Assembly: GCF_022602565.1 (NCBI RefSeq) | Contig: NZ_JALBCV010000001.1 | Span: 181,193-245,192 of the forward strand | DNA length: 64,000 nucleotides | Source: Rosenbergiella metrosideri | GTDB lineage: Bacteria > Pseudomonadota > Gammaproteobacteria > Enterobacterales > Enterobacteriaceae | Direction of reading: 5' to 3' | In this document: positions 55,819 to 57,911 of the stretch, piece after piece | Position numbering within the stretch: the first letter of the stretch is position 1 | How the letters are laid out: each line of letters opens with the position of its first letter | Translations under genes and position numbers: made by a program | Notes under the pieces: generated by a model | Seen by the model: the letters and a program-made list of their open reading frames with translations, nothing else | Told to the model about the DNA's origin: nothing | Database searches by the model: none

Positions 55819-56886
55819 CTATGCCTTATTGAGTTTTTTTTCACGCAGTAAAAGTGCTTCTTTACGGGCCACGCCCCAGCGATAACCCGAGAGTTTTCCA
55901 TCGCGCTTCACCACGCGATGACAAGGGATCACAATAGCGAGCCGGTTGGCCGCACAGGCTTGGGCAACGGCGCGAACGGCTTTAGGGGAACCGAGCTGCT
56001 CGGCAATATCGGTATAACTAACGGTTGAACCTAGGGGGATATCACGTAACGCCCGCCACACACGCTCTTGAAAGACAGTACCTTGAATATCCAAGGGCAA
56101 GTGCCAGATCGAGCCGGGGTGTTCAATGTAACCAATGACTTGGGCGACGATCTGTTCATAATGCGCATCCCCGCCCACCAAAATAGCGTGAGGATATTGT
56201 TGCTGAAATTGTTCAATTAACGATTCAGGCTCATCACCTAAGCTGATCGCACAGACCCCCTTCTCGCTTTGCGCTACCAGTACCGAGCCAAGGCTACACT
56301 GTCCGAGTGCAAAATAGATCGTCACTCCCGCAGCGCCCTGTCGATAGTGCTTCGCTGTCATCCCGAGGCGCAGCGAGGCATTTTCGTAAAATCGGCTATT
56401 TGCGTTAAAACCGGCTTGGTATATGGCCTCGCTGACCGATTGCTGTGGATTATTAAGCTGTTCTCGTAAGCGTATGGCACGCAATCCTTCACTATATGCT
56501 TTCGGCGTCAGTCCCGTTACCGATTTGAAAATACGGTGAAGATAGCCGCTGCTCACTGCACAATGATTGGCCAGTGTCGATAAATCCGGTGACTGTTCAG
56601 CATTCTCGATCAGATAACAGCTCTTTTTTACGATGGCGATCCACTTCGCAGGACAGTGCGGCATTGGTGTGCTAGCCTCGCTTAAGGTATAGCCTGCCGC
56701 CTCGGCCGACGCACTATCACGAAAAAATTCGACATTGTCTCGGGCAGGTAAAATCGTCACGGCACTGGGGGGGCAATATTGACCAGTAGAGCGAACGGCC
56801 ACGACAAAGTAGTCATCGGCGGTGGTATCACGGGTCTTCACGGCTTGCCAACAGGCGTCATCATTCGGATAGCATGGGGTAACCAT
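55819..56886 (-). CDS. ada: Ada-type bifunctional regulator/O6-methylguanine-DNA methyltransferase with degenerate N-terminal zinc site
   Basis: 355 aa, nearly collinear with E. coli Ada. The C-terminal MGMT domain has the methyl acceptor Cys322 in IPCHRVV and the AraC-type helix-turn-helix (about residues 100-185) is complete. In the N-terminal domain, where E. coli Ada uses Cys38, 42, 69 and 72 to bind zinc and accept phosphotriester methyl groups, this protein has Cys38, Ala42, Ser69 and Ser72. So three of four zinc ligands are lost, and methylation-dependent activation through Cys38 is doubtful. No obvious Ada box (AAAGCGCA-like) is seen upstream. It starts 213 bp from the divergent AroE-like gene. 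C-terminal repair should remain active. Confidence 0.85.
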   Translation of the reverse strand: MVTPCYPNDDACWQAVKTRDTTADDYFVVAVRSTGQYCPPSAVTILPARDNVEFFRDSASAEAAGYTLSEASTPMPHCPAKWIAIVKKSCYLIENAEQSPDLSTLANHCAVSSGYLHRIFKSVTGLTPKAYSEGLRAIRLREQLNNPQQSVSEAIYQAGFNANSRFYENASLRLGMTAKHYRQGAAGVTIYFALGQCSLGSVLVAQSEKGVCAISLGDEPESLIEQFQQQYPHAILVGGDAHYEQIVAQVIGYIEHPGSIWHLPLDIQGTVFQERVWRALRDIPLGSTVSYTDIAEQLGSPKAVRAVAQACAANRLAIVIPCHRVVKRDGKLSGYRWGVARKEALLLREKKLNKA

Positions 56887-57098
56887 TGGGCGTTAACTCC
56901 TGACAGTGACTGAGTGGCATAGACGATAGAGGATTATACTGTTCATTAATATCCGTTTGTTAACCTGCTATCCTTTTACAGAAATATTCACTGGTATGAT
57001 CACGCAATATGTTTCTGCGTCGCATTTTTTTAGCGTTTATCTTCCAATGGAATCGGTTCATTGATAATAATATCGCTATATATTATGACTAGGACTGA

Positions 57099-57911
57099 AT
57101 GATGCTCAATAAAGATACTCAACTCTGTATTTCTCTTTCCGGCCGCCCCAGTAATATTGGCACCCGTTTTCATAATTATCTTTATCAGAAACTCGATATT
57201 GATTTTATTTATAAGGCTTTCTCGACGACCGATATAGAAGCGGCGATCAAAGGCGTGCGAGCATTAGGGATCCGCGGTTGTTCAGTTTCTATGCCCTTTA
57301 AAGAGAGCTGCATTCCTTTTATCGATCACTTGACAGATTCGGCTAAAGCGATCGATTCCGTCAATACCATCGTCAATGATAACGGTGTACTCACCGCTTA
57401 TAACACCGATTTTTTAGCTATTCGCCAGTTGATCACCGACCATCTGCCAGACAACTCACAAACTGTGCTGGTACAGGGTGCAGGCGGTATGGCTAAGGCC
57501 GTGGTGGCTGCCTTTCATAATGCCGGATTCACTCAACTCAGCGTAATGGCGCGTAATGAGCAGAGCGGTAAAGCGCTTGCAGAGAAGTATCACTATCGCT
57601 ATCAGTCGCCCGACGAGGCTACGACTGCCGATATTATCGTCAATGTCACCCCAATAGGCATGACCGGCGGCGCTGAAAGTGACACCCTCGCCTTTGCCGA
57701 ATCGATCGTGGATGCGGCTGACACAGTCTTCGACGTTGTTGCGTTCCCGGCACAAACCCCTCTGGTGAAAAAAGGTCATGCACTGGGTAAAAAAGTACTG
57801 AGTGGTGATCAGGTGATTGCGCTACAAGCGTTAGAGCAATTTGCGTTATATACTGGAGTGAGACCCAGTGACGCATTAATGCAAGAGGCCTCTATTTTCT
57901 CCCGCCAATAA
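57099..57911 (+). CDS. Shikimate 5-dehydrogenase-like protein (AroE family)
   Basis: 270 aa. It has the substrate-domain element GCSVSMPFKESC (catalytic Lys about residue 68), DSVNTIV, the Asp in AYNTDFLAI, and the NADP loop VQGAGGMAKAV (about 125-135). The SMPFKE form replaces the SVTIPHK form of AroE and is typical of the HI0607/SDH-like branch, where a function in the shikimate pathway is less clear and quinate or other substrates are possible. A second ATG three bases on could also be the start. Confidence 0.82.
   Translation: MMLNKDTQLCISLSGRPSNIGTRFHNYLYQKLDIDFIYKAFSTTDIEAAIKGVRALGIRGCSVSMPFKESCIPFIDHLTDSAKAIDSVNTIVNDNGVLTAYNTDFLAIRQLITDHLPDNSQTVLVQGAGGMAKAVVAAFHNAGFTQLSVMARNEQSGKALAEKYHYRYQSPDEATTADIIVNVTPIGMTGGAESDTLAFAESIVDAADTVFDVVAFPAQTPLVKKGHALGKKVLSGDQVIALQALEQFALYTGVRPSDALMQEASIFSRQ

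Follow-up and report, generated by a model that had tools for sequence, protein, structure and literature searches.

In Escherichia coli Ada, the thiolate of Cys38 is activated by a zinc site whose four ligands are the cysteines at positions 38, 42, 69 and 72. According to PMC4437013, the A box of the operator is read by R45 and R71 and the B box by F114, H115 and R118, and the thiolates of Cys38 and Cys69 repel DNA until Cys38 is methylated, which makes the protein an electrostatic switch. PMC10957082, citing earlier work, states that an E. coli Ada with a Cys-to-Gly replacement in its A-box domain is constitutively active. Searches of an open-access full-text library list no paper whose title or abstract opening concerns a naturally zinc-less full-length Ada, and the available portions of PMC3788762 and PMC10779285 do not mention zinc-less variants.

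The ada gene described here lies in the window, the 64,000-nucleotide stretch of Rosenbergiella metrosideri DNA that was analysed (NCBI taxonomy places Rosenbergiella in the Erwiniaceae). The open reading frame, strand and coordinates assigned to it in the earlier note are correct (Table 1). The protein has the domain order N-Ada, AraC-type HTH, C-Ada, and scores 400.2 bits against the NCBIfam Ada model NF011964 over residues 6-352 (cut-off 345). The Pfam models Ada_Zn_binding, HTH_18 and DNA_binding_1 all score above their own cut-offs, the first of them at 65 bits. Against the Ogt model NF007626 the protein reaches 92 bits, under the cut-off of 192. PDB chains 1wpk, 1zgw and 1u8b align with it over residues 8-138 or 8-144. 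An AlphaFold model built from 7 input sequences (pTM 0.41) has a pLDDT of about 88-93 over residues 11-70 and 59 over residues 71-80, and predicts that the N-domain folds; this is weak evidence because AlphaFold ignores zinc. Foldseek ranks 1sfe, 1u8b, 1zgw and 1wpk at the top for this model, a ranking that reflects resemblance within the family rather than function.

Table 1. Features of the ada locus in the Rosenbergiella metrosideri window
Feature	Position	Strand	Remarks
ada gene, 355 aa, zinc site absent	55819..56886	-	uninterrupted ORF; NF011964; Pfam Ada_Zn_binding, HTH_18, DNA_binding_1
N-terminal (A-box / former zinc) domain, residues 11-80	56647..56856	-	C38 A42 S69 S72; I45 E70 A71
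Cys38 codon (former methyl acceptor)	56773..56775	-	retained in window and G004; Ser in G001, Ala in G002
Ala42 codon (E. coli: Cys)	56761..56763	-	
Ser69 codon (E. coli: Cys)	56680..56682	-	
Ser72 codon (E. coli: Cys)	56671..56673	-	
AraC-type HTH domain, residues 92-185	56332..56613	-	R118 retained; 114 = Gly, 115 = Tyr
O6-alkylguanine methyltransferase domain, residues 190-350	55837..56319	-	PDB 1sfe match, 203 bits; pN/pS 0.036 vs G004
Active-site Cys322 codon, PCHR motif (= E. coli Cys321)	55921..55923	-	
Intergenic region 5' of ada	56887..57098	-	perfect Ada box absent; best match AATATTTCTGTAA, 1 mismatch

A MAFFT alignment of 142 rows (the window protein and 141 loci, some rows being repeats of one gene) bears out the claim, made by eye in the earlier note, that three of the four zinc cysteines are lost. 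Positions 38/42/69/72 (E. coli numbering) read C-A-S-S in the window and in genome G004, S-Q-S-L in G001 and A-S-H-C in G002. The closest named relative, at 94% identity, is Rosenbergiella epipactidis 2.1A, apparently the same genome as G004. The zinc site is missing from all five Rosenbergiella genomes in the sample (the window's own included), four of which encode a full-length Ada, and since all five concur a single bad assembly is rejected as the cause. The fifth, G003, is without the N-terminal half: its ada (L014 1492-2025, -) encodes a free-standing C-Ada of 177 aa beside the same basS-like gene, its initial Met corresponding to residue 176, where the E. coli C-Ada structure 1sfe begins, and the 9-kb stretch around L014 contains no further Ada fragment. 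Searching the five genomes with the Ada_Zn_binding profile gives one match in each of four, ada itself, and none in G003; no additional Ada N-domain was found outside ada. Cysteines before residue 92 stand at 5, 12, 38, 78 and 90 in the window protein, at 12, 38 and 90 in G004, at 90 only in G001, and at 7, 36, 72 and 90 in G002; no substitute set of zinc-ligand cysteines is conserved across the four full-length proteins. Cys78, which the earlier note had named as a residue that might enter the zinc site, is rejected as a replacement ligand, as is Cys5, both being unconserved in the 94%-identical sister, where residue 78 is Tyr.

The AraC-type domain had been called intact. That stands for the HTH, which is largely kept in Rosenbergiella Ada (68 of 76 strongly conserved cells retained), and for R118, but F114 and H115 are replaced; beyond what the note had claimed, the A-box readers R45 and R71 are replaced too, so the DNA-binding part is not fully intact. 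The window protein has Ile45 and Ala71 in place of the two A-box arginines and, with Gly114, Tyr115 and Arg118, retains one of the three B-box contacts. Of the four full-length proteins from Rosenbergiella, three have Ile and one has Val at position 45; 71 is Ala in two, Val in one and Glu in one, 114 is Gly in three and Ser in one, and Tyr115 and Arg118 are present in 4/4. The 108 ada genes with an intact zinc site have Arg (94) or Lys (14) at 45, Arg at 71 without exception and His at 115 in all but three. Replacement of F114 is less telling, because that position also varies in intact genes (Tyr 48, Phe 43, Trp 12, other 5).

The operator has gone as well. Scored as AATN6GCAA within 200 bases upstream of ada, a perfect Ada box is found in 0/5 Rosenbergiella genomes versus 104/109 intact ada genes, E. 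coli K-12 among the latter (Fisher p 1.7e-6, not corrected for relatedness); chance would supply one for about 1% of genes. The earlier note had seen no box upstream of the window gene, and rightly: the 214 bases there hold no perfect box, the best match having one mismatch, and such one-mismatch matches occur upstream of ada in 4/5 Rosenbergiella. No perfect box stands upstream of alkB in any of the five genomes, nor is the pattern in excess genome-wide (8 matches versus 11 for the reversed control). Two promoter-like sites are predicted in 56800-57200, against 1.5 (sd 1.4) in shuffled sequence.

Substitution patterns set the domains apart. Between the window gene and that of G004 the C-domain has 4 nonsynonymous and 35 synonymous differences (pN/pS 0.036), versus 9 and 13 for the N-domain and 8 and 11 for the HTH (pN/pS 0.22 for each). 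The nonsynonymous excess of the N-domain over the C-domain is significant (Fisher p 0.004; synonymous p 0.58), and N-domain pN is nonetheless below pS (Fisher p 2.3e-4 against equal rates). Each of the six comparisons among full-length Rosenbergiella genes gives a dN(N)/dN(C) of 3.2-5.4, versus a median of 0.89 and a maximum of 2.70 for 78 control pairs, in which intact Ada genes were compared within a genus. The pairs share branches, and in most Rosenbergiella pairs synonymous sites are saturated; comparisons involving G003 or g107, where the N-domain supplies 1 or 9 columns, are excluded from these ranges. The methyltransferase domain of Rosenbergiella Ada is strongly constrained and, as the earlier note held, its active-site cysteine is intact in a PCHR motif. 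The N-domain is relaxed, yet still under constraint. A whole-gene pseudogene is ruled out by the uninterrupted reading frame together with the low C-domain pN/pS.

AlkB is encoded in 5/5 Rosenbergiella genomes and was not seen adjoining ada; AlkA has no match at E 1e-3 in any of the five, and no Ogt scores above cut-off in any. The other related gene, as inspected in the window's genome, is a 104-aa reading frame with PWHR instead of PCHR, a motif that marks alkyltransferase-like proteins. Ada is the only PCHR-type alkyltransferase found in Rosenbergiella, which would explain its retention. The gene is flanked by the same neighbours on both sides in the window, in L033 (R. epipactidis), in G001 and in G002; in the stretch read from G003 only the eptA-basR-basS flank was found. 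The labels eptA, basRS and ydiB are our own, and a profile scan of the ydiB-labelled neighbour returns a shikimate dehydrogenase-like protein.

Loss of the zinc site extends beyond Rosenbergiella. With an E-value limit of 1e-70, which leaves out shorter or more distant Ada genes, the window protein has matches in 126 of 295 genomes of the family sample (60 of 154 genera); three more Rosenbergiella members bring the total to 129 Ada genes in 60 genera. All four zinc cysteines are retained in 108 of these, three in 1 (L110, which has no Ada box), exactly two in none, one in 11 and none in 6, so that 17 have at most one, while 3 more are without the domain. In nine of the 60 genera every sampled Ada is without the zinc site, and one of the nine (g107) is without the entire N-domain. 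The mapping of cysteines over homologues that the earlier note had proposed shows the loss to be genus-wide, and takes in eight other genera that the note had not foreseen, five of them with an Ada box.

Those five box-keeping genera (g131, g99, g82, g115 and g118; 11 genomes, in the same family as the host) retain R45, R71, H115 and R118 in 11/11 proteins, with a Lys or Arg at position 48 in 11/11 versus 17/108 intact proteins; the 11 cases are not independent, two g82 proteins being identical and two g115 proteins nearly so. Their Ada box is perfect in 10 genomes and has one mismatch in 1; 7 perfect boxes and the one-mismatch box (L065) lie directly upstream of ada. The remaining three belong to g118, where the gene order is alkB-ada rather than ada-alkB, a perfect box lies 90 bases upstream of alkB in 3/3 genomes (L060, L064, L069), and position 38 is Gly; of 28 alkB loci scanned upstream, these three alone have a box. 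Of the 7 perfect boxes that adjoin ada, 5 are followed by a GTGTTT-like stretch, versus 12 of 105 in intact genes. Values of omega_N are 0.081 in g131, 0.067-0.080 in g118 and 0.176 in g99 (controls: median 0.073, maximum 0.25), the g115 and g82 pairs being too similar for an estimate, and N-domain constraint in g131, g118 and g99 is within or near the control range. The N/C ratio exceeds the control maximum in two of three g118 pairs, at 2.81 and at 11.3, the latter value resting on one C-domain change. Cys38 is retained without the other ligands in six further genes, two each from g131, g99 and g82.

The other genera are of several kinds. In g112 the zinc site and box are absent and R45 and R71 are retained, so that contacts and box, linked elsewhere, do not go together in this genus. 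The Ada of g168 (L066, genome G265) has an N-domain deletion that includes position 45, in a frame otherwise open, and no box. In g107 (L104 and L112; genomes G227 and G302) only the HTH and methyltransferase are left, without a box and with an AlkA-like match adjoining. At L049 (G314, g131) an inverted Ada-box-like pair, CACTCGGTCTCTTGCTTTTTAAT ... GAATTGAAAAGCAAGAGACCGAGTG, sits upstream of ada, with ada-alkB to one side and a divergent AlkA-like gene (28% identity) to the other, an arrangement suggesting that both are controlled from it. An alkB match at G211:C1:952641-953288 has one internal TAG; the match in G085 has none.

Across the 11 box-keeping genomes the pattern AATKARAAAGCAA has 27 matches, 6 of them at ada, versus 7 for the reversed control, and so is in excess away from ada. 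Thirteen of the 21 non-ada matches were inspected: 7 are inside longer same-strand reading frames (L288, L289, L291, L293, L294, L295, L297), one (L299) is inside an opposite-strand frame, and 5 lie between frames, one before the L296 frame, one before the L287 frame and three before short frames or none. The L296 match (G314:C1:176800-179000) is a box-like AATGAGAAAGCAA shortly upstream of a frame that resembles mfd, and the L287 frame looks MarR-like to us. No known Ada-regulon gene is among the 13 inspected.

On the rpoB tree the zinc-less genera are scattered, requiring at least 6 changes. The Ada tree requires at least 4 changes for loss of the zinc site and places the zinc-less genera, along with g85 and g163 (both intact), in a basal polytomy of a 50-row clade; the Ada data allow all 20 zinc-less or N-domain-less rows to form a single clade (p-AU 0.137). 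The site may have been lost once and the variant then transferred, or it may have been lost several times.

The reading that we favour, and consider likely from the sequence comparisons, is that Rosenbergiella Ada would be functionally a plain O6-alkylguanine-DNA alkyltransferase uncoupled from the adaptive-response switch. The earlier note had put forward a repair enzyme that has lost its methylation-triggered switch, and this part of its interpretation is well supported: Rosenbergiella has lost the zinc ligands, both A-box arginines, H115 and the operator, and its methyltransferase domain is strongly constrained. Cys38 would not be activated, and methyl groups of phosphotriesters would not be taken up; the protein would induce neither its own gene nor alkB, and ada would be transcribed at a roughly constant level from an Ada-independent promoter. 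The N-domain and HTH may persist as a folded scaffold or as a non-specific DNA-binding part. The zinc ligands would have gone first, giving the form now seen in several other genera with box and contacts, then the contacts and box in Rosenbergiella, and lastly the N-terminal half in one species (G003), an order that is likely, though the trees do not decide it. Several observations count against a plain repair enzyme: four of the five species keep the N-domain in frame, two of the four full-length members keep Cys38, the HTH is mostly intact, one-mismatch boxes are present and, as weak evidence, the N-domain is predicted to fold with good confidence. An N-domain pN below pS argues against simple decay, and this above all is why our confidence stops short of high.

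The same constraint is why the other half of the earlier note's interpretation, that the protein may sense something else, stays in contention. An N-domain with a new sensing or binding role, for another ligand or for redox on Cys38, and with a different operator, would account for purifying selection on the N-domain and HTH, for the retention of R118, and for residues such as K81 and W82 that are common to the four full-length Rosenbergiella proteins and rare in intact Ada. We nevertheless judge it unlikely: no set of cysteines is conserved, G001 having none before residue 90, the N-domain outpaces the C-domain 3- to 5-fold, more than in any of the 78 control pairs, and G003 does without it. 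Fainter still is the prospect that methylation of the PCHR cysteine is the signal for transcription and the N-half only binds DNA. Caulobacter Cada2, which is without the four-Cys A-box domain, is switched in this way according to PMC10957082, and the window protein retains both the HTH and PCHR. Rosenbergiella, though, no longer has the A-box arginines, H115 or the operator, and such a mechanism would suit the five box-keeping genera better. Least probable of all, and very improbable in our estimate, is that Cys38 alone accepts phosphotriester methyl groups zinc-free and acts as a slow sensor. Its retention in the window, in G004 and in the six further ligand-poor genes fits that idea; G001 and G002, however, have Ser and Ala in its place, the basic residues beside it are also lost, and it is the zinc site that activates the thiolate.

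If Rosenbergiella Ada is a plain alkyltransferase, the box-keeping genera may hold the stage before it. We regard it as evenly balanced whether several genera have a class of Ada that is without the zinc-thiolate sensor, keeps the contacts and the box of its own operon, and binds that box without methylation, with Rosenbergiella as a later stage in which regulation is gone and the N-half is being discarded. To judge from their conserved residues and boxes, the box-keeping proteins probably still regulate without the sensor. They should bind the box unmethylated, because with the thiolates gone there would be no electrostatic block left for Cys38 methylation to lift, and methylation-independent binding in the five genera would be what the electrostatic-switch model predicts; g118 genes have Gly at position 38 by nature. 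By analogy these proteins would be either constitutive activators or, like Cada2, switched by the C-terminal PCHR cysteine in response to O6-methylguanine. Since 11 of the 17 zinc-poor proteins keep both the operator and its reading residues, they offer natural variants for the electrostatic-switch model, with which one can ask whether thiolate loss makes Ada constitutive, and the variants together form a gradation that runs from a switch to an enzyme alone.

Set beside known systems, the window protein shares its domain order, PCHR active site and R118 with E. coli Ada, and differs in having lost three zinc cysteines, R45, R71, F114 and H115, in having no perfect Ada box and in an alkB that does not adjoin. 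The zinc-less proteins of g131, g99, g82, g115 and g118 are likewise full-length with at most one zinc cysteine, but keep R45, R71, H115 and the box, all lost in Rosenbergiella. Caulobacter Cada2, as PMC10957082 describes it, is alike in its HTH and PCHR methyltransferase and in the absence of the four-Cys A-box site, and unlike in that the A-box domain is wholly absent, with an RLHD domain and a CGG X-box; the window protein still has a degenerate A-box domain, and it is the Ada of g107 that has the domain layout of Cada2. Ogt and free C-Ada (1sfe) represent the activity that the window protein has probably kept, and the G003 protein is a free C-Ada, whereas the window protein retains its N-domain and HTH.
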